From a virus: a stretch of 20,976 bases of DNA. The first letter of the stretch is position 1. Every line of letters begins with the position of its first letter. The position numbers were made by a program, and so were the translations under genes. Under the pieces are notes generated by a model. It searched no databases. It was not told where the DNA came from and saw nothing but the letters and a program-made list of their open reading frames with translations. The stretch is taken from positions 1 through 20,976 of IMG/VR virus record IMGVR_UViG_3300001589_008726; one strand, 5' to 3'. Below, piece by piece: positions 1-16,784 of this stretch.

Positions 1-2163
1 CGCCGCATCCTGGAGGTGGGCACCCCCGGGCGGTTGGGCCTCCACATGAAAGCCGCTCCCTATGTACTCATCAAAAAAGGCGACGTGGGCGACTGGGCCA
101 TGTTTGTGCAGACCTTTGGCGAGCCCATCATAGATGCCGTGTGGGACGGACTGGAGGATGCCCAGCGCACCGCACTCATCACCGCCATCAAATCCCGCGG
201 ACCGGGTGGAGCACTGGTGCGGCCTGCGGGCACAGACGTGCAGCTGCTGGCACCCTCAGGCACCGCCAATGGCGACCTACAGGAGAAGCTCATGACCGCC
301 TGCAACAGGGAGATCAGCAAAGCCTACATAGGCAGCACCGAGACCACCGAGAGCTCCAGCAGCTCCGGCTATGCACAGAGCAAGACCCACGAGGGCCAGG
401 ATGAGCGCAAACACGCCCGATACATCACCTTTGCGCGCAAGATCCTCAATACCCGATTCACCCGCATCCTACAGGCCGCAGGCTTCGATACCGCAGGCGG
501 CAAGTTTGTGGTGGCGGGTGAGGACAACGAGCTCTCCAAGAAGGAAATGTTTGATGTCCACCTGAAGATGGGACTCCCCGCTGCCAAAGGCGGACTGGAG
601 ATGCCCATAGACCACAAGTGGATGTATGAGACCTATGGCATGCAGATGCCAGAGGACTATGATCAGCAGATGGCCGAGCGTGCCGAGCTGAAAAAGCAAA
701 ACCAGCTCCAGCACGACCAGGACATCACCCAGGCGAAAAAGACCCCCAAGGCCAAACCCAAGGGCGAGCCCGCCACCAACAAAGACGATGAGGTGGAACT
801 GGCAGAGCAGCGCGCCTGGTGGATGAAGCTCTTTGATCGGTTACCTTTTTTTCCGGCAGCCCCGGCGCAGATCGGGGCAGTGGAGACGAGCTGCTGTGGG
901 ACTCCCCGCATACAGCTGAGTGAGGCTGATGCCGGGCGCATGGCCGCCACTGATGCGCTGGTCATACAGCGCGTATGGGATGCCGCAGGCTCCCTCACCT
1001 TCGATCCGCTGCTGCACTTCAGCACTGCTGATGTCCTTTTAAATGCCTTTAAAATGGGGTGGGATGCAGACGTGCGCGTGGAGCTGATGGATGCCGGATT
1101 TACCTATGGCGTGAATGACCCTGCGCTCATCACTGCCTTTGAGCAAAACATCTTCCGGTTTTCAGCCGCCAAAACTCTGGCACAGGTGCAGGAGCTCAAT
1201 GCCCTCTTCAGACAGGCCGGGAGCTTCCGAGACTTTGAGCGGCTGGCACGCCAGACCCTGGTGAAGTATAACCGCTCCTGGCTGGAGAGTGAGTATAACA
1301 CCGCCCTGCTCACAGGAGAGGCCGCCGCCACCTACCAGCGCCTCATTGCCAAGTCCGGGCTGTTCACCCACTGGGAGTACCGCACCGTGGGCGATGAGCA
1401 TGTGCGCAAAGAGCACCGGGCACTCCACGGCCTCATACTGCCCTGGGATGATCCCCGATGGAACAAACTATTTCCCCCAAACGGGTGGAACTGTAGGTGC
1501 TTCATCCTGCCGCGTATGGCCGGAGAACTCTCTGCCTATGACCTACAGGCCATGCAGGCGCGGGCAGATGCCTACTTTGGCACCATAGAGTATAAGCGAA
1601 ACGCCGCCCAGGGATGGGGGGTAAATAGGGGAGCCGTGGCGGAGATCTTCACCGCCAACCAGCAGTATGTCACCAAGCAGCCCGGTATGGCTGCCAAGAT
1701 GCTCAATGCCCTGGGCCGTGCAGACTACCAGCTGCCCAGCTACAGCCAGATGAAAAAAGGCGCTACCAGCAGCCTGCCCGTGGAGCCGATCAGCCCCGCA
1801 GACTTCTACCATGGGCTGGAGGTGCAGCAGGGCCAGAGCCTCCTGCGAGACTATCACCAGAGGCCTGTGAGCCTGGAGGCCGCCCGCTATCAGCAGCAGG
1901 TGGATCAGGCAGACAAAGCTCGCCTGCTGGCTGCCATGCGCCAGACCATGAGCAGCCCCGATGAGGTGTGGATCCACGGAGCCCCCGGCACTCAGCAGCT
2001 CAGCCAGATGGTCTATATCAGATACTATCAGGATCACGCCATGGTGGTGGTGGGTGACCTCAGCAAAAACCAGATAGCCCTCAGCCAGTGGTTCACCCTG
2101 CCAGAGGTGAAATCCACCATACAGCAGTACCGCAGGGGTATCCTCATCAAAAGCCGCGACTGA
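1..2163 (+). CDS. Portal (DUF935) - MuF head protein - C-terminal nuclease-like fusion, 5' partial
   Basis: The frame is open at base 1, so the gene starts outside the window; the GTG at 16 is internal. The first ~260 residues resemble the C-terminal half of Mu gp29-type portals (motif KAAPYVLIKKGDVGDWAMF). After a Lys/Pro/Glu-rich linker, residues ~340-510 are a MuF minor head domain with the hallmark H-x3-H-x2-L-H-G and PPNGWNCRC motifs (nt ~1400-1505). The last ~100 residues (from nt ~1850) resemble phage Barnase/EndoU/ColicinE5-like (PBECR) domains: a DEVWIHG strand, a VYIRYY strand, and a terminal YRRGILI. Mu encodes portal and F protein as separate genes, so the fusion is notable. The portal forms the dodecameric DNA gate and MuF a minor capsid component; the tail domain may be an injected toxin or nuclease. 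Portal and MuF are secure; the nuclease call is inference. Confidence 0.85.
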   Translation, partial: RRILEVGTPGRLGLHMKAAPYVLIKKGDVGDWAMFVQTFGEPIIDAVWDGLEDAQRTALITAIKSRGPGGALVRPAGTDVQLLAPSGTANGDLQEKLMTACNREISKAYIGSTETTESSSSSGYAQSKTHEGQDERKHARYITFARKILNTRFTRILQAAGFDTAGGKFVVAGEDNELSKKEMFDVHLKMGLPAAKGGLEMPIDHKWMYETYGMQMPEDYDQQMAERAELKKQNQLQHDQDITQAKKTPKAKPKGEPATNKDDEVELAEQRAWWMKLFDRLPFFPAAPAQIGAVETSCCGTPRIQLSEADAGRMAATDALVIQRVWDAAGSLTFDPLLHFSTADVLLNAFKMGWDADVRVELMDAGFTYGVNDPALITAFEQNIFRFSAAKTLAQVQELNALFRQAGSFRDFERLARQTLVKYNRSWLESEYNTALLTGEAAATYQRLIAKSGLFTHWEYRTVGDEHVRKEHRALHGLILPWDDPRWNKLFPPNGWNCRCFILPRMAGELSAYDLQAMQARADAYFGTIEYKRNAAQGWGVNRGAVAEIFTANQQYVTKQPGMAAKMLNALGRADYQLPSYSQMKKGATSSLPVEPISPADFYHGLEVQQGQSLLRDYHQRPVSLEAARYQQQVDQADKARLLAAMRQTMSSPDEVWIHGAPGTQQLSQMVYIRYYQDHAMVVVGDLSKNQIALSQWFTLPEVKSTIQQYRRGILIKSRD

Positions 2164-3947: not shown

Positions 3948-4226
3948 CTGTGCGGACTTACAGCGAGCTATAAAATCCGCATCGCTTTCATTCACTCCCT
4001 GCTGCACGATCACCTCCTCCATGTCCTCACTTCTCATTTGCCATAGGCCACTATCTTTGTATAGCGGCATATTCTCGGGAAAATCATAAAGGAGGCCACT
4101 CATATTGGAGGCTGCCAGCTTCAATATTTCGGCTGCTGCCGCCTCTTCGCTCCAGTCTTCTAATTTGATGTAGGAAATCAGTTCTTTCAACTTCCTTCCC
4201 TCGCTCACTTGATCCATTGCGTTCAT
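3933..4226 (-). CDS. Hypothetical protein
   Basis: This 97-aa acidic protein is predicted to be mostly helical (EEAAAAEILKLAAS; EDMEEVIVQQG). No known domain is visible. The start could be the first ATG at 4226 or the Met three residues later. It lies 11 nt downstream of the 4238-4630 gene and 8 nt upstream of the 3484-3924 gene, so all three are probably co-transcribed. It ends in PASN, encoded by the 17-bp repeat that also ends its upstream neighbour, although the rest of the two proteins is not alike. Confidence 0.6.
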   Translation of the reverse strand: MNAMDQVSEGRKLKELISYIKLEDWSEEAAAAEILKLAASNMSGLLYDFPENMPLYKDSGLWQMRSEDMEEVIVQQGVNESDADFIARCKSAQPASN

Positions 4227-4634: not shown

Positions 4635-4877
4635 TTAAAAAAGGTTGTTTAAAAACTGAACTGATATTTCTTTGACTCCTATATACATCCACTCACCCTC
4701 TATTTTTTCAAATAAGACCTCCCCATCGCCAAAGGGTATCCAGCAAGTCCTTCGCATCATGGCCGCCTCGTCTATCTCGGCCCGTGTTTTTCCTATTCGC
4801 AGCAGCACTCCGTCGGTGTATGCTCTCCAGTCCTCCATTTCCATTCTATGACTGGGAATTTCAAGTGAAAGGCTCAC
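4635..4877 (-). CDS. Hypothetical 80-aa protein
   Basis: The start overlaps the stop of the lipoprotein gene by ATGA (4874-4877), supporting coupled translation and this start. The protein has an amphipathic helix (GKTRAEIDEAAMMRR) and a beta-like C-terminus (GDGEVLFEKIEGEWMYIGV). No family recognised and no export signal. It sits between a lipoprotein and cytoplasmic hypotheticals, which may form a small accessory operon. Confidence 0.6.
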   Translation of the reverse strand: MSLSLEIPSHRMEMEDWRAYTDGVLLRIGKTRAEIDEAAMMRRTCWIPFGDGEVLFEKIEGEWMYIGVKEISVQFLNNLF

Positions 4878-5391: not shown

Positions 5392-5553
5392 TCAGGCAGC
5401 CTGTGGCGATTCCGGTTCTATTGGTTCAGTAAGGTGAACATTAACACCTCTCAATAAAACGTGGCGCGAAAGGGCTTCAGCTAATGCCATATCACCACGA
5501 GCTCCAACTATCTGAAGAGTGTTCTTGTCTGTATTTGATTCTTCTGTTTCCAT
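5392..5553 (-). CDS. Hypothetical 53-aa protein
   Basis: An ATG at 5553 opens a 53-codon frame. The peptide has an acidic N-terminus (METEESNTDKN), a hydrophobic middle (LQIVGARGDMALAEALSRHVLLRG) and an acidic Pro-rich end. The coding strand upstream of the ATG carries AAAAAAATAACCCTTAGAAA-like A-rich sequence, common in leaders here. No family recognised. It lies between the lipoprotein and the palindrome chain, so it may be phage accessory DNA or the edge of an inserted segment. Confidence 0.45.
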   Translation of the reverse strand: METEESNTDKNTLQIVGARGDMALAEALSRHVLLRGVNVHLTEPIEPESPQAA

Positions 5554-5589
5554 TCTTTTCTAAGGGTTATTTTTTTCTTGGCGCGGCCC

Positions 5590-5643
5590 CCGCTTATCCC
5601 GATCATGCCGCTCGTCGCTACGCGCACTCCGGCACAGATCGTT
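5590..5643. repeat. Imperfect hairpin at left edge of the palindrome chain
   Basis: CGATC-ATGCCG near 5600 and CGGCACA-GATCG ending near 5641 form an imperfect inverted repeat around a GC-rich loop (CTCGTCGCTACGCGCACT). No ORF is visible. The loop resembles those of neighbouring hairpins (pattern CTTCGCT / GCTACGC). It is taken as the left limit of the palindrome chain, but the exact edge is uncertain. Confidence 0.5.
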
Positions 5644-5695
5644 AACAGCCGCTAAGAATCACTTCGCTGCGCTACGCAATTCCAAGCTTGGTGTT
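5644..5695. repeat. AAC...GTT hairpin (52 bp), attC-like in size
   Basis: This element begins with AAC (5644-5646) and ends with GTT (5693-5695). Its arms pair imperfectly (GAAT at 5656 with ATTC at 5679; outer AACA.CC with the end GGTGTT) around the loop CACTTCGCTGCGCTACGC. Size and AAC...GTT polarity resemble a short attC, but the cores do not match RYYYAAC/GTTRRRY. Confidence 0.45.
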
Positions 5696-5950
5696 GTGCG
5701 CAATTTAGCTCACGCACACAGCATTTGTTTCGCTTTCATCTCTTTCCCAATCTTCATATTGTTCAGACGAAATGAAATCTCTGTCCTCAAAAATCCCTTT
5801 ACTTGGTGAGTAATAAACCAAATTATATCCATTACCCTCATCGTCTTTGCTTGTAACTACTTGCATTTCTAATGTTTCGGGATTTTCTTCTGCGAACTTT
5901 TGTAGTCCTTCAATGTATTCTTTTAATGTCATAATAAAACTGCGCACAAC
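5693..5950. mobile_element. Inverted-repeat module carrying the 75-aa gene
   Basis: A perfect 10-bp inverted repeat, GTTGTGCGCA at 5693-5702 and TGCGCACAAC at 5941-5950, tightly encloses the gene at 5705-5932. The module runs GTT...AAC. The gene stop is only two bases inside the left arm. Adjacent hairpins share its terminal GTT and AAC. It is interpreted as a mobile gene cassette by analogy only. Confidence 0.55.
5705..5932 (-). CDS. Conserved small protein of the KDDEGNG type
   Basis: This 75-aa acidic protein has a helical N-terminus (LKEYIEGLQKFAEENPE), a central strand with VVTSKDDEGNGYNLVYYSP and a C-terminal NAVCVS. I recall very similar small proteins in Bacteroidota genomes and phages, always as unknowns. 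The ATG at 5932 is preferred over the GTG at 5947, because the GTG lies in the inverted repeat bounding the module. It is the only gene of its IR module, so it was probably acquired as a unit separately from its neighbours. Function unknown. Confidence 0.75.
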   Translation of the reverse strand: MTLKEYIEGLQKFAEENPETLEMQVVTSKDDEGNGYNLVYYSPSKGIFEDRDFISSEQYEDWERDESETNAVCVS

Positions 5951-6070
5951 ATTGTATATAAATCAGTGGCGTTGTACGTCTATTTTGAACCACCTTTGCT
6001 GTTAATTTAGTTTTGTACGGTTAGCAATATTACAGCTATCAATCGCCACCGCTTCATATACTTAGCCGTT
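5948..6070. repeat. AAC...GTT hairpin element, 123 bp, no gene
   Basis: This spacer lies between two gene modules. It starts with the AAC that ends the previous module and ends with the GTT that starts the next. Its arms pair in two blocks: TATAT (5955-5959) with ATATA (6056-6060), and GTGGCG (5966-5971) with CGCCAC (6044-6049), with six unpaired bases between blocks on each side. The inside is AT-rich with GTTGTACG / TTGTACGGTT repeats. The two-block stem with an internal bulge is like the L/R boxes of integron attC sites. Confidence 0.55.
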
Positions 6071-6918
6071 AGCATTCAGTTTTAAGAAATAAATAAAAGC
6101 CAACCCTCCTAGACGCATAGCTGTATTGCTTTAAATATCTCATAAGCCACTTGTGGCACTATCGCATTACCTACTCCTTTAATTCTGTCCACCCTATCGG
6201 GTATCCCATCAATATCTCTGAAAACTCTGGGGTCAGTTCCTTTCCGTACACGTTCCGAAACCAGCGATCCAGGGAGACGGATTTGTTCGTGTTGAAATTC
6301 AGCATCTCTTTTGATGTGCATTCCCTCTTGATATGATCTGAGGCTGTCGGTGTTGGTATCATGTGTGTTGCTTTTAAAACCGATGATCCAAATTCTATCT
6401 CGGTTATGGTACGCTCCGACCGTGTAAGCTGGTAGATGATACGTTTCTGTTTGATACCCCAGAGCTTCCAAGTCATCAAGCACTTGGTCGAGTGCCATGT
6501 CAATGAGGCCATACACGTTTTCGCCAATAACAAAGGCTGGTTTAACCTCTCTAATAACTCTAAGCATTTCTGGCCAGAGATAGCGATTGTCTTTTTTCCC
6601 TTGCTTTTTCCCAGCCTTTGAGAATGGCTGGCAGGGAAAGCCTCCTGAAATAATATCAACTGGTTCGAGGTTATGTCCTCCGATGTTTCTAATGTCATCT
6701 TGTATAATTTTATGATTGAAGTTTTTCCTCAACACTTTACAGCAAAAGGGATCTAATTCATTTGACCAAACTGGGGTTATTCCTGCCCATTGTGCAGCAA
6801 GTGGAAATCCTCCGATTCCTTCAAATAATCCCCCAAGTTTTAACGTATTTTTTCCCACGCTTCTTTTTATTTATTTCTTAAAACCGTCCTACCCTCAATG
6901 CCTTCGCTCAATGCTAAC
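6068..6918. mobile_element. Inverted-repeat module carrying the DNA methyltransferase
   Basis: An 8-bp outer repeat (GTTAGCAT at 6068-6075; ATGCTAAC at 6911-6918) and a perfect 20-bp inner repeat (6079-6098; 6865-6884) enclose the methyltransferase gene. On the left the two repeats are 3 bp apart; on the right a 26-bp spacer (6885-6910) separates them. The same contiguous/split asymmetry occurs in the two hypothetical-gene modules to the right, there on the opposite side. Confidence 0.65.
6109..6858 (-). CDS. DNA (cytosine-5) methyltransferase
   Basis: This 249-aa enzyme carries the C5-methyltransferase motifs in order: motif I LFEGIGGFPLA (11-21), the catalytic PCQ in GGFPCQPFS (Cys76), motif VI ENV (113-115), motif VIII NRDRIWIIG (152-160) and motif X GVGNAIVPQVAYEIF (228-242). 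It transfers methyl groups from S-adenosylmethionine to cytosine in a short DNA site. The target-recognition region between VIII and X is short, as in compact phage enzymes, and no restriction gene lies beside it. It therefore looks like an orphan methyltransferase, perhaps protecting phage DNA. The only available start is the GTG at 6858; an in-frame stop precedes it. It sits alone inside a 20-bp inverted repeat, in AT-richer DNA than the phage core. Confidence 0.92.
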   Translation of the reverse strand: MGKNTLKLGGLFEGIGGFPLAAQWAGITPVWSNELDPFCCKVLRKNFNHKIIQDDIRNIGGHNLEPVDIISGGFPCQPFSKAGKKQGKKDNRYLWPEMLRVIREVKPAFVIGENVYGLIDMALDQVLDDLEALGYQTETYHLPAYTVGAYHNRDRIWIIGFKSNTHDTNTDSLRSYQEGMHIKRDAEFQHEQIRLPGSLVSERVRKGTDPRVFRDIDGIPDRVDRIKGVGNAIVPQVAYEIFKAIQLCV

Positions 6919-6986
6919 AATACGTATGGGTGCATTTACCCACGCTCAAATCATTCCTACCGCACACGCACCATACGATCAGCGTT
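6916..6986. repeat. AAC...GTT hairpin element, 71 bp, no gene
   Basis: The element begins with the AAC ending the methyltransferase module and ends with the GTT starting the next hairpin. CGTATGGGTGC (6923-6933) pairs with GCACCATACG (6968-6977) with one bulged G. An extra-helical base in one arm is also typical of folded attC sites. No ORF. Confidence 0.55.
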
Positions 6987-7064
6987 GTGATAGAATGGCT
7001 CGGCTTTCAGCCTCACTATTCCGACCGCCCTTGCAGGGCTTTACTCGGAACATTCTATCACAAC
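6984..7064. repeat. GTT...AAC hairpin element, 81 bp, 14-bp perfect arms
   Basis: GTTGTGATAGAATG (6984-6997) and CATTCTATCACAAC (7051-7064) are perfect inverted repeats around a GC-rich 53-nt loop that contains CGGCTTTCAGCCTCACTA. It has the same size and polarity as the hairpin at 7418-7500, whose arms are unrelated in sequence. No ORF. Confidence 0.8.
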
Positions 7065-7420
7065 AGCCCACGCACGGCCAAGCCTCGCCACTCTACACAA
7101 CACGCAGTATCTGCAATGGGAATCAGGCCCCGCAAATAATGAAGTCCTCTGAAGCTCCCGGCTTGTCCGTCTGCTGTTCCACACTCTCAGATTTTAAAAC
7201 CTCAATTGCTGCTATAATCGAGGCAAAAGCGGATGCTTCTCCGCTGCTAAAATTCCTTTGAGGTGAATTGATCCCATCAATACTTTCCCAATGTCTCTTT
7301 TCAGCTTTCGCCTCCTGGAGACGTGCTTCTAATTTCTGTTTAAGTCTTTCTAATGTATCCATTTCATAAATCGTCTTTAAAATCTTACGTGTTCCCACAG
7401 CAGATACTGCGTGGGCTGTT
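7062..7420. mobile_element. Inverted-repeat module carrying the 79-aa gene
   Basis: The outer repeat AACAGCCCACGC (7062-7073) matches GCGTGGGCTGTT (7409-7420), and the inner repeat CACGCAGTATCTGC (7101-7114) matches GCAGATACTGCGTG (7400-7413); both are perfect. On the right the two overlap in one 21-bp block; on the left a 27-nt spacer splits them. The gene at 7123-7362 fills the inside. It is read as one unit of the palindrome chain. Confidence 0.7.
7123..7362 (-). CDS. Small coiled-coil-like hypothetical, paralogue of the 7575-7787 protein
   Basis: This 79-aa protein (start at the ATG 7362; an upstream in-frame GTG at 7398 lies beside the inverted repeat and is disfavoured) begins with a charged helix (LERLKQKLEARLQEAKAEKRHWE), then SSGEASAFASIIAAIEVLKSESVEQQT. 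The order of helix, aromatic turn, SEA-SAFA helix and K-SE-V-Q tail matches the protein of the neighbouring module, so the two are paralogues. No enzyme motif. The N-terminal heptads suggest oligomerisation. Function unknown. Confidence 0.65.
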   Translation of the reverse strand: MDTLERLKQKLEARLQEAKAEKRHWESIDGINSPQRNFSSGEASAFASIIAAIEVLKSESVEQQTDKPGASEDFIICGA

Positions 7421-7500
7421 AGGGAATGAATATGTTCCGCTTCGCTCCACTACGAAAATCGTTCGTGCCTCACTTTCCTTTTCGATATTCATTCCCTAAC
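7418..7500. repeat. GTT...AAC hairpin element, 83 bp, 16-bp perfect arms
   Basis: GTTAGGGAATGAATAT (7418-7433) and ATATTCATTCCCTAAC (7485-7500) are perfect inverted repeats enclosing 51 nt with CCGCTTCGCTCCACTA in the loop, similar to the loop of the 6984-7064 element. Its terminal GTT and AAC are shared with the gene modules on both sides. No ORF. Confidence 0.85.
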
Positions 7501-7842
7501 GAGCCACGTCAAAGCTCTTGGAGCATCTAATCGAGCAGGTGCGAAACGAAACATACTCACCCTAACAACGTGTATCAACTACGAGAGGCGAGCTTTGTCT
7601 CCTGCTTCACATTCTCGGAATTTTTAAATTCCAATATCTTTTCTTCAACTAGAGCAAAAGCACTCATAGCAGCTTCAGAACACTCCATTGCATGGTATCT
7701 CTGTTTGTTGTTCCAGTAGGTAACCTCACTTTCGGCTTTTGCTCTTTCAGCTTTTACAAAAGCTATCAAATCATCAATTGTATTCATATTCTAATCATTT
7801 AAAATTCCTTCATGTTCTCGCAGTAGATACACGTGGCTCGTT
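7498..7842. mobile_element. Inverted-repeat module carrying the 70-aa gene
   Basis: The outer repeat AACGAGCCACGT (7498-7509) matches ACGTGGCTCGTT (7831-7842), and the inner repeat ACGTGTATC (7568-7576) matches GATACACGT (7826-7834), extendable to 12 bp with one mismatch. The right arm is contiguous; the left is split by a 58-nt spacer that ends in CCCTAACA. This is the same design as the 7062-7420 module. From 7843 to 7936 I see no further repeat or gene. Confidence 0.7.
7575..7787 (-). CDS. Small helical hypothetical, paralogue of the 7123-7362 protein
   Basis: This 70-aa protein starts at an ATG (7787) with an AT-rich leader. It contains LIAFVKAERAKAESEVTYW, then SEAAMSAFALVEEKILEFKNSENVKQET, which aligns with the paralogue (AKAE, W, SEA-SAFA, K-SE-V-Q-T). 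Its stop codon lies inside the inner left inverted repeat. The two paralogues occupy adjacent modules with unrelated boundary repeats, so they look like separately captured family members rather than a simple tandem duplication. Function unknown. Confidence 0.65.
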   Translation of the reverse strand: MNTIDDLIAFVKAERAKAESEVTYWNNKQRYHAMECSEAAMSAFALVEEKILEFKNSENVKQETKLASRS

Positions 7843-7936
7843 ATGGCACATACACACCAAGCACTTTGCAAATCATATCATCAGCGTGTCTAATACAATC
7901 TATTGGATCACTTTAATGCTGGAGATGTGGTGGTAT

Positions 7937-8257
7937 TTAGGTTCCGCCTACAGTCTGATGCACAGGTATTACTTGTGCCATTTTTGGTTCAAACCAACTA
8001 AGAAATACAGTATTCGGGTCTGCCCTGAGATACTCAGGAAACTGCGACACCCGGCAGTAGGCACTCAGGTGCTCATGCAGGGGCGTGTACAGGTTGGAGC
8101 CCGCCATGATCTGCACGGGCATACCCTCGGATCTCACTATCTCGGCGGCTTCAGCGCTCCACGACTCCAGCACCCGGGCAAAGGCCTCCGCCATAGACGG
8201 GGGCTGCTCCAGTCCGGCCAGCATGGCCTTTAGGTCTTCAAGGTTTAGTGTCTCCAT
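7937..8257 (-). CDS. Hypothetical phage early protein
   Basis: This 106-aa protein has a helical N-terminus (LNLEDLKAMLAGLEQ; AEAFARVLESWSAEAAEIVRSEG) and a C-terminal half with FPEYLRADPNTVFLSWFEP. It returns to the GC-rich codon use of the phage core, so it marks the right side of the inserted palindrome chain. The ATG at 8257 overlaps the end of the 42-aa ORF by 13 nt. No family recognised. Confidence 0.6.
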   Translation of the reverse strand: METLNLEDLKAMLAGLEQPPSMAEAFARVLESWSAEAAEIVRSEGMPVQIMAGSNLYTPLHEHLSAYCRVSQFPEYLRADPNTVFLSWFEPKMAQVIPVHQTVGGT

Positions 8258-10920: not shown

Positions 10921-11583
10921 TTAATAGTTTGTAGGTATGGTGATGATAGATTTATCCGCTCTGGCTCTCTGGGCTTTTCGCTCCATCTTTTGGCGAATCA
11001 TTTTGGTTTTGGGAGCGAGTCCGTTTCGCACACGCAGGGCTTCCATCTGGTAGGTACGGCGCAGCCCGGCAGAGATAGCTGCGGGGTTGTTGTTTCTGCG
11101 GGCATTCTCCTCCATGCTGATATTCTCCAGATTTTCTATGGTGCAGTTGAGCGGGTTACCGTCGCGGTAGGAGATCATGCCGCTGGTAGGCAGACTACCA
11201 TAGTGCAGCCACCAGGTGAGGTAGCTGAGTCGCTCATATCTGCCGCCGCTTATAGACCCTCCAGACCACTTTACCATCACGGTCTGGCGGCCATCCTGCT
11301 CCCATAGGGCTATAGCTCCCTGTGGGCGGGCATCGCGGGTTTTCCATACCTTGTGGTGGTTATATCTGCCTTGCTTAGCGTTTTTGCGGTGGATCGCCAC
11401 TATCTGCTCACGGGTACGCTTCAGGCCCATGTAGTGCCTTTTTTTCTCTATGTGCTTTTTCGTCCATGTAAATCCCTTGGGGTATAGCGCCTCCATGATC
11501 TCAGCGATCTCCACATCTCCTATCAGCGGATAGTAAGCCAGCAGAAAGTCGGTTTGCTCTTTGGTCCAGTAGGTATAGTTCAT
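10921..11583 (-). CDS. HNH-family DNA-binding protein, probably lacking catalytic His
   Basis: This 220-aa protein starts with a SANT/Myb-like region (YWTKEQTDFLLAYYPLIGDVEI) and has a central HNH_3-like segment: RLSYLTWWLHYGSLPTSG, ISYRDGNPLN, CTIENLENIS. In active members the position before DGNPLN is usually His-His-K; here it is S-Y-R, so metal-dependent cleavage may be lost and a binding role kept. The C-terminus is very basic. Its ATG overlaps the PAPS-reductase-like stop by ATGA. Many phages carry such genes as homing endonucleases, but the tight operon position suggests integration into phage regulation or replication. Confidence 0.7.
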   Translation of the reverse strand: MNYTYWTKEQTDFLLAYYPLIGDVEIAEIMEALYPKGFTWTKKHIEKKRHYMGLKRTREQIVAIHRKNAKQGRYNHHKVWKTRDARPQGAIALWEQDGRQTVMVKWSGGSISGGRYERLSYLTWWLHYGSLPTSGMISYRDGNPLNCTIENLENISMEENARRNNNPAAISAGLRRTYQMEALRVRNGLAPKTKMIRQKMERKAQRARADKSIITIPTNY

Positions 11584-12311
11584 GACTCTAATATTTGTTT
11601 GATTGATTTGCCCTGAAACATGGTATAGCCTATCTCATCCTCGAAGGACATCATCTTCTCGGCATGCTCAGGATCTATCTCAGCAGATGTTTTCACATCA
11701 CTGCTGCACGCCAGAAGGCATATTTTACAGGATTTCCTCTTCATCCCGGCTGCATAGGTATAGAAGAGCTCCTGTCCATGCTCTGCCACTTTATTTCTTA
11801 CCCACGATTCCTTCCTGGCATGGATAGGTAGGCAATCCACCACAAATCGCCCAGGGATAGTAAGTCGCTTATTCACTTTGAAGGGCTTCTTTTTTGCCCT
11901 GGAGGTAGACTCCTCTGCCCGGATACCCATACAGTTGAATACTGTTTTCCATCCCTCATCACGGCATATTTTTCGGACTACCTTCTCTATGGGATCTCTC
12001 TTCAAATCTGAGGTGCATTGGCGTGAAGAGGATGAGGGGAAGGATGGCACATCAGGGCGATTCATCTTTCTGGATCTCACCATGTCAAAGAAGGTCTTCT
12101 TTGCCTGGGTAAATATCACCCTATACCCTTCACAGTTCTTTATGATATACTCCTCGGTGCCTTCCCAATCCATCCCAGGGAGAATTGCATGCACGACTAT
12201 AATCTGACTGGGTGGTATCCTCATATCTTGGGTTATGTATAGAAACATAGCCCTGGAGTCTTTCCCTCCAGAATCATTAATCACGTAAAGTCGCCTATCT
12301 CTCAAACTCAT
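11580..12311 (-). CDS. PAPS-reductase-family PP-loop ATPase-like protein
   Basis: This 243-aa protein has the PP-loop SGGKDS at 14-19, RQCTSDLKRDP at 97-107, GIRAEESTSRA at 129-139 and a cluster CKIC-LLAC (Cys195, 198, 202). These are the hallmarks of phage and defence-associated PAPS-reductase-like proteins that adenylate a substrate. The family includes sulfur-transfer enzymes, DndC-like DNA-sulfur proteins and uncharacterised phage members. No other sulfur gene is visible in the window. It is the first gene after the terminator/tRNA-like block; its ATG is preceded by AAAGGAG at a suitable distance, a rare good Shine-Dalgarno here. Substrate unknown. Confidence 0.8.
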   Translation of the reverse strand: MSLRDRRLYVINDSGGKDSRAMFLYITQDMRIPPSQIIVVHAILPGMDWEGTEEYIIKNCEGYRVIFTQAKKTFFDMVRSRKMNRPDVPSFPSSSSRQCTSDLKRDPIEKVVRKICRDEGWKTVFNCMGIRAEESTSRAKKKPFKVNKRLTIPGRFVVDCLPIHARKESWVRNKVAEHGQELFYTYAAGMKRKSCKICLLACSSDVKTSAEIDPEHAEKMMSFEDEIGYTMFQGKSIKQILES

Positions 12312-16486: not shown

Positions 16487-16535
16487 TTTTACCTGTGATT
16501 TTGTTGTGAATTATTTGGTTTACTGCTTAGAATCT
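16479..16535. repeat. 57-bp direct repeat, copy at the MuB start
   Basis: It is identical to 16777-16833, 298 bp away. On the minus strand it runs from the last two codons and stop of the MuA-domain ORF through a 40-nt spacer to the first codons of the MuB-like gene (ATG AGC AA). Flanking bases differ on both sides, so the edges are exact. Confidence 0.97.
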
Positions 16536-16784
16536 CCAGTCGCTCCCCCGGTCTCCGGGCTCTGCCAGTGCCCGTGGCACTTGCCTAAACTCATCCAGCA
16601 CCAGGTTCAGGCCTTTGCCATCGGATATCAGCACCTGGCTCAGGTCATGCTCATCGTAGTACACCTGCACTTCCTTCCCTACATTTTCAAGTATTTGCTG
16701 TTGGCTCATCTCGTAGTGTCGTTTCACTCCGCCCAGGGTAAGGGTCACCCCGTCTGCCTTTATCTTGATTTTGTTGTTGCTCAT
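16527..16784 (-). CDS. Duplicate of the MuA C-terminal beta-barrel domain, 85 aa
   Basis: Over 67 residues (from IKADGVT to PRALA) this ORF is identical to MuA residues ~507-573 at 60 positions. It starts with MSNN like MuB and ends with the same Arg-Phe-stop as MuA, because both ends lie in the 57-bp repeats. Relative to MuA it lost two codons (Asp-Tyr), gained 2 bp that shift the frame near the end, and misses the last ~100 residues. Most differences from MuA are amino-acid changing. The domain is the small barrel (Mu transposase C) that follows the catalytic core and binds DNA non-specifically. It could act as a free inhibitor or partner of MuA/MuB, or be a decaying duplicate; the intact frame with its own leader leaves this open. 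Confidence 0.75.
   Translation of the reverse strand: MSNNKIKIKADGVTLTLGGVKRHYEMSQQQILENVGKEVQVYYDEHDLSQVLISDGKGLNLVLDEFRQVPRALAEPGDRGSDWRF

Follow-up and report, generated by a model that had tools for sequence, protein, structure and literature searches.

Probable integron-like gene cassettes with flipped recombination sites in a Mu-type prophage linked to Bacteroidota

The viral fragment IMGVR_UViG_3300001589_008726 from IMG/VR (20,976 bp, hereafter the window) carries a chain of palindromes, some with genes inside and some without, which raises the question of what kind of element such a chain represents. Features are numbered in window coordinates, and the array is read on the minus strand. 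The original prediction, made from the sequence alone, had described nine alternating AAC/GTT junctions and had proposed a cassette-exchange system. We consider it likely that the window holds four cassettes without an integrase, which belong to an integron-like system for gene capture in Bacteroidota and their viruses and lie in a Mu-type prophage.

On the minus strand of positions 5693-7842, AAC..GTT and GTT..AAC palindromes take turns, with 3-bp ends common to neighbours, and all nine predicted junctions were present. The perfect outer arms, counted from the AAC/GTT ends, were 10 bp at 5693-5950, 9 bp at 6068-6918 (plus an inner 20-bp repeat, 6079-6098/6865-6884), 14 bp at 6984-7064, 13 bp at 7062-7420, 16 bp at 7418-7500 and 12 bp at 7498-7842. 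When 5401-8100 was scanned, the best chain score was 23 (four right-hand modules) versus a maximum of 6 in 100 dinucleotide shuffles, indicating that the predicted chain is real and not due to chance. In the AAC..GTT hairpins 5948-6070 and 6916-6986 the paired AAC/GTT ends are followed by a short unpaired spacer and then by an inner stem, and attC sites likewise have a spacer and an inner stem inside AAC/GTT. Folding of single-stranded DNA gave z scores of -8.1 and -5.0 for the GTT..AAC hairpins 6984-7064 and 7418-7500, respectively.

We defined a cassette as two abutting palindromes, P1 (AAC..GTT, attC-like) followed by P2 (GTT..AAC), with AAC at both borders and the gene in the loop of either P1 or P2. 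The features of the array are as follows.

7418..7842, minus strand: cassette 1 (70-aa gene) with AAC at both borders, recognised from the module chain and the two-palindrome design found in 246 cassettes of relatives.
7564..7842, minus strand: P1 of cassette 1 in the preferred parse, with AACG, a 5-nt spacer, a 19-nt stem, the gene in the loop and the end TGTT.
7498-7842, minus strand: P1 of cassette 1 in the alternative parse, with the 12-bp perfect outer arm.
7575..7787, minus strand: 70-aa open reading frame (ORF) in the P1 loop, function unassigned, without Pfam or PHROG match, a paralogue of the 79-aa ORF.
7418..7566, minus strand: gene-less P2 of cassette 1, with the perfect hairpin 7418-7500 and a degenerate inverted copy of the arm at 7537-7566 (z -4.5).
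6984..7420, minus strand: cassette 2 (79-aa gene) with AAC borders, recognised from the module chain and the design of the relatives.
7099..7420, minus strand: P1 of cassette 2 in the preferred parse, with the gene in the loop.
7062-7420, minus strand: P1 of cassette 2 in the alternative parse, with the 13-bp perfect outer arm.
7123..7362, minus strand: 79-aa ORF in the P1 loop, function unassigned, without Pfam or PHROG match, a paralogue of the 70-aa ORF.
6984..7101, minus strand: gene-less P2 of cassette 2, including the perfect hairpin 6984-7064 (hairpin z -8.1).
6068..6986, minus strand: cassette 3 (DNA methyltransferase), with arms GTTAGCATT/AATGCTAAC.
6916..6986, minus strand: P1 of cassette 3, an attC-like site reading AACG..TGTT.
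6109..6858, minus strand: gene for a C-5 cytosine DNA methyltransferase, within P2 (6068-6918), Pfam PF00145, E value 9.7e-48.
5693..6070, minus strand: cassette 4 (75-aa gene), recognised from the chain and from a homologous gene that is a cassette in contig L016.
5948..6070, minus strand: P1 of cassette 4, an attC-like site of 123 bp reading AACG..TGTT.
5705..5932, minus strand: 75-aa ORF inside P2 (5693-5950), with relatives in eight viral contigs at up to 85% identity.
5588..5695, minus strand: trailing end past the last AAC, a short AAC..GTT segment (5641-5695) plus a GATC hairpin.

Cassettes 3 and 4 are typical, with the gene in P2 and AACG..TGTT sites. The genes of cassettes 1 and 2 are diverged paralogues (31% identity), and the AAC..GTT modules that hold them are homologous over their first ~75 nt (0/2000 shuffles). 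These two cassettes were parsed either by their outer 12-13-bp arms and short hairpins (parse A) or by a GTT further in, at 7564-7566 and 7099-7101, respectively (parse B); behind each of these GTTs comes a degenerate copy of the following hairpin (0/2000 shuffles each). Parse B was preferred because all four window P1s then end in TGTT and have the usual unpaired spacer; the P1s of cassettes 1, 3 and 4 read AACG..TGTT. The cassette borders are identical under both parses. Compensating changes and indels were seen by eye on both sides when the inner and outer arms of the 70-aa and 79-aa units were compared, which suggests that pairing is maintained in these arms. The same arrangement as in cassettes 1 and 2 was found directly before the integrase in L195 (L-numbers denote the viral contigs compared in this analysis), with a 69-aa ORF in P1 and a 51-bp P2 hairpin, and L217 likewise has its gene in the P1 loop, the ORF extending a few codons into P2. 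Folding of the trailing end was not significant (z -0.1 and -1.4), and this segment is possibly a decayed cassette or phage flank. The opposite-polarity hairpins noted earlier are simply the P2 halves, and neither they nor the palindromic gene units form an extra class of site. As each cassette consists of P1 and P2, alternation is what a simple tandem array would give, and the complementary ends of P2 are likewise expected of a classical cassette circle.

In L016, the homologue of the 75-aa gene lies inside a GTT..AAC palindrome with an AAC..GTT hairpin on each side. A 16-nt pattern taken from the L016 site, CGCCAATGTGCTGTTA, matched 91 viral contigs, and chains of the window type were present in L016 and in most of the 80 contigs obtained by the pattern. 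Most pattern-matched contigs were conserved through GTTA and contig-specific beyond it, with chains of up to ten modules. In total 248 distinct cassettes were parsed, two in the window and 246 of the same design in about 70 viral contigs. In an all-against-all alignment, the right ends of homologous blocks fell at ..TAAC and their left ends at AAC or GTT, so the module borders coincide with the ends of shared blocks and the proposal of a cassette-exchange system gains support. Applied to the relatives, the presence/absence check put forward with the original prediction thus came out in its favour. Six pairs were informative (about four of them independent, as L197/L198 and L181/L197/L228 overlap): their upstream 45 bp were 78-100% identical and their downstream 45 bp 51-62%, which is the chance level. 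The upstream P1 is therefore common to the gene pairs and the downstream P1 is not; P1 travels with its gene, and the unit is usually P1+P2, bordered by AAC, rather than the single module as had been suggested. Some exchanges nevertheless occur at GTT: in L085/L131 and L133/L153 one gene body is kept while the leader differs, and in L195/L217 one P2 hairpin is kept while P1 differs. By these comparisons, cassettes in the relatives appear to be gained, lost and shuffled at core-site borders.

A tyrosine recombinase was present in 9 of 50 pattern-matched records, and a 266-aa recombinase family recurred close to arrays in L112, L115/L137 and L145. A search with four members of this family gave 80 loci. 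Chain scores above 10 occurred within 4.5 kb upstream of the recombinase in 44/56 loci, with up to 16-17 modules, and downstream of it in 0/60; the best score of any shuffle was 8.5, and 1/59 control windows from unrelated contigs scored above 10. Array genes are on the same strand as the recombinase and precede it. Recombinases at 38-42% identity, from Chryseobacterium and Persicobacter plasmids and a Cellulophaga phage, had no upstream array. A conserved sequence, AACTATNATATAT, starts exactly at the AAC of the last cassette in 52 loci, with the recombinase match mostly 45-63 bp further on. Lying beside the integrase gene, it resembles an attI platform and would serve as the integration site. 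The sequence directly before the last AAC was variable, but a short TT motif recurred about 8 bp ahead of this AAC. Such a motif, often ATTG, is conserved at cassette ends in L179-L257, some 6-9 bp ahead of the terminal AAC, and is also present in the 75-aa cassette of the window (ATTGCGCACAAC); it may be a second, putative recombinase-binding box. In L203 the loop of P1 in the integrase-nearest cassette (5729-5914) has no ORF and holds a T-arm-like stem sequence (GCAAGTTCGAGCCTTGC), for which ARAGORN made no tRNA call.

All six catalytic residues of the tyrosine recombinase family were present in the array-linked recombinase. The array-linked recombinases scored 145-155 bits against the integron integrase model TIGR02249 (IntI; cut-off 265) and 167-206 bits against the XerA model (cut-off 220). 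The TIGR02249 match fell into two parts, 28 residues taking the place of IntI residues 184-259; in an alignment with Vibrio IntI4 (2a3v), 28 residues stand where IntI has 76, i.e. about 48 fewer. An IntI-type integrase with the specific insertion domain was thus found neither in the window nor among the array-linked recombinases. The predicted recombinase structure (predicted local distance difference test, pLDDT, 84; predicted template modelling score, pTM, 0.62) had the Vibrio integron integrase 2a3v as its best fold match.

The orientation of the sites relative to the genes was also evaluated. Among the 246 cassettes outside the window, P1 started with AACG in 231 (background 17%) and ended with TGTT in 234 (background 35%); the chain detector relied on AAC and GTT alone and did not use these extensions. 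The coding strand read AACG..TGTT, with a G.T wobble beside the core, in 227/246 cassettes and AACA..CGTT in 3. A class 1 attC taken as reference, of which 2,318 plasmid records matched at least 80% of the length (1,952 records at 99% or better), reads AACA..CGTT in the gene direction. The array site is therefore flipped relative to the gene, and each site stands at the 5' end of its gene. The ORF was nearly always on the P1-to-P2 strand (minus-strand ORFs in 3/248 cassettes). The classical arrangement, with attC 3' of the gene and genes reading away from the integrase, was thus not found. The R boxes that bound classical attC sites (R''=RYYYAAC and R'=GTTRRRY) were largely missing as well, GTTRRRY occurring at 17/248 junctions and RYYYAAC at 16/248. 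Instead, the junctions read GTTAT/GTTAG and ATAAC/CTAAC, with the AAC/GTT ends and stems present.

In 87-92 cassettes, about a third, the ORF begins within P1 and crosses GTT into P2. Recurrent P1 leaders were NNANVLL, LNISDV, LHISDV, LNIGAV, ATIGNTLL and the signal-peptide-like FAFAYVLLVAV, each found before differing protein bodies. One protein body had two leaders, MENDNLKTES.. in L133 and MTKVSNEEQS.. in L153. As judged from the sequence, P1 sites are predicted to encode start codons and leader peptides. Leader-bearing sites with a start codon and leader in frame were noted across L078-L157 and L179-L258 (e.g. L133 5152-5449 and L153 596-892). No clear array accompanied a weak leader match in a huge phage.

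Could the window simply hold an ordinary cluster of attC sites lacking an integrase (CALIN), derived from a normal integron and mobilised by classical IntI in trans? Integrase-less cassettes with DNA methyltransferases have been published in phages, including P12002L, a phage of the Bacteroidota genus Polaribacter, one attC of which recombined with IntI1 (PMC9892861). The AAC/GTT borders and hairpin sites are also in common, and IntI has the fold closest to that of the linked recombinase. However, those clusters were detected by classical attC models (PMC9892861), whereas the cassettes described here consist of two palindromes, have a flipped attC in 227/246 cases with R boxes at only 17/248 and 16/248 junctions, and have in relatives a dedicated recombinase. 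This recombinase scored 145-155 versus 265 bits for TIGR02249, lacking the stretch between IntI residues 183 and 260, and no TIGR02249 match was found in the window or in four related records, in agreement with the earlier statement that the window has no integrase; the integrase of the system was found in relatives. When P12002L was scanned for chains, only two-module chains were found. We regard an ordinary CALIN as unlikely.

Miniature inverted-repeat transposable elements (MITEs) or hairpin insertion elements (e.g. RAYT/REP, or IS200/IS605-derived) inserted side by side would account for the gene-less palindromic hairpins h1 and h2, which have similar loops; the h2 loop motif used as a search query gave three matches, all unrelated. 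Nevertheless, adjoining modules have one 3-bp junction in common and no target-site duplications were seen around them, the alternation is strict, the arms differ in each module, and hundreds of cassettes stand in chains adjoining a tyrosine recombinase with none detected downstream, which makes such elements very improbable. The gene-less P2 hairpins are very stable and could also end transcription, possibly as an additional role. That the hairpins are just terminators or attenuators between ordinary phage genes, with AAC/GTT sharing accidental, is nevertheless scarcely credible, as no T-run follows the hairpins, the chain score far exceeds shuffles, the design recurs in unrelated contigs with breakpoints at junctions, and the arrays upstream of the recombinase (44/56 vs 0/60) refute termination as the sole explanation.

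Several observations weigh against an integron-like capture system. The window itself has no integrase, and about a fifth of the integrase loci gave no clear array. The two attC-like window sites (5948-6070 and 6916-6986) exceeded shuffles in folding only weakly, with z scores of -0.8 and -1.7. The 70-aa and 79-aa cassettes permit two parses, and their 12-13-bp perfect outer arms are unusual, this arm being exactly 3 in 235/246 relatives. As some exchanges take place at GTT instead of AAC, the P1+P2 unit is not absolute. Finally, no relative was near enough to reveal gain or loss of the window's own cassettes. Searches of viral contigs, GTDB genomes and phages turned up no close relative of either the 79-aa or the 70-aa protein, and a pattern scan of GTDB genomes found no member of the 75-aa family. 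Among the methyltransferase relatives in 46 viral contigs there was no close full-length homologue and no convincing array, and a chain in one of these contigs (L031) was judged to be due to chance.

The integron-like system was compared with known systems. As in integrons, cassettes stand in tandem with complementary ends and folded hairpin sites with AAC/GTT ends, the integrase, whose closest fold is that of IntI 2a3v, adjoins one end with an attI-like platform, and the order is integrase-attI-attC with the integrase transcribed away from the array. Unlike in integrons, the genes face the integrase with attC at their 5' end, the R-box consensus is missing, the recombinase is about 48 residues shorter than IntI in a gap that includes the IntI-specific insertion, the sites appear to encode start codons and leader peptides, and P1 can hold a whole gene. 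With the site flipped, the position and direction of the recombinase amount to the classical integrase-attI-attC order with the genes turned round. In the reversed integrons of Treponema the integrase and cassette genes are also co-directional (PMC3607928), as here. However, intI of Treponema is transcribed toward attI and the cassettes (PMC3607928) and therefore lies upstream of the array, whereas here the array precedes the recombinase and the element turned with respect to the genes is attC, not the integrase. Archaeal XerA and bacterial XerC-XerD resemble the array-linked recombinase in length and domain content, but the latter stays under the XerA cut-off (167-206 versus 220 bits) and is tied to arrays rather than to a dif site. 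The system works like an integron yet lacks some of the integron features tested. No description of a flipped attC with a dedicated insertion-less recombinase, or of leader-encoding sites, was found in the open-access literature (subscription journals and preprints lay outside the search).

As for the mechanism, P1 would be the folded attC-like recombination site and P2 the cassette body with complementary ends. By analogy with the action of IntI on bottom-strand attC at attI, the 266-aa IntI/Xer-like recombinase would most likely fold the coding strand at P1, cut on the AAC side (A|AC), and excise or insert P1+gene units at the AAC platform that immediately precedes the recombinase gene. The window array would have been acquired from such a locus and would now depend on an integrase in trans. 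We regard this course of events, from folding to uptake of the array, as somewhat favoured. The 5' sites could bring a start codon, a leader or signal peptide, or even a whole gene. The methyltransferase cassette in a phage suggests protection against restriction, as has been proposed for other phage cassettes (PMC9892861).

The borders of the L016 array are TTGCGCAT|AAC on the left (4845-4857) and AAC|ATCTGTATATGCGCAA on the right (5575-5590). The empty site would be a palindrome, which suggests that arrays enter phage DNA at AAC-containing hairpins. Just outside this array, a methyltransferase gene is flanked by direct repeats of about 28 bp, AACAACTAAAAGAGGKAGACAATAAGATT, at 4076-4104 and 4822-4850, and looks as if it had been inserted or duplicated at the start of the preceding gene.

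The array of the window is carried by a hankyphage-like Mu-type prophage, in agreement with the original prediction that it rides in a transposable prophage. The window proteins include a Mu portal (PF06074) and an F-like protein (PF04233), a DDE transposase (phrog_310) and a MuB with 36% identity to MuB of Bacteroides phage p00. The named matches were all in Bacteroidota phages (Bacteroides, Porphyromonas, Winogradskyella and Elizabethkingia), and the host probably belongs to this phylum. Rfam and tRNA scans of the window were both empty, and no relatives of the window transposase were found in viral contigs. Three other genes of the prophage were noted.

16-2163, plus strand: Mu portal/F-like protein with a C-terminal PBECR2 nuclease-like domain (PF18810, E value 4.5e-10).
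11580-12311, minus strand: phosphoadenosine phosphosulfate reductase-like gene (phrog_424).
16527-16784, minus strand: 85-aa ORF adjoining the transposase and copying part of its C-terminal region (..KADGVTLTLGGVKRHYEMSQQQILENVGKEVQVYYDEHDLSQVL..), apparently the Mu-type transposase gene duplicated in part.

Integrons are the classic bacterial gene-capture machines, and the only true Bacteroidetes genome for which IntegronFinder 2.0 reported a complete integron was that of Salinibacter ruber (PMC9024848). We lean slightly towards the view that the arrays are distinct and widespread "flipped integrons" with their own recombinase family without the IntI-specific domain, whose sites may act as translated 5' exons, such that a swap would change the start codon, leader or signal peptide. 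If this is true, a large capture system may have escaped notice in Bacteroidota and their viruses, and the insertion domain of IntI would seem not always to be required. The recombinase together with folded P1 offers a direct assay. Furthermore, if the sites donate start codons and signal peptides, this would amount to a form of domain shuffling by site-specific recombination.

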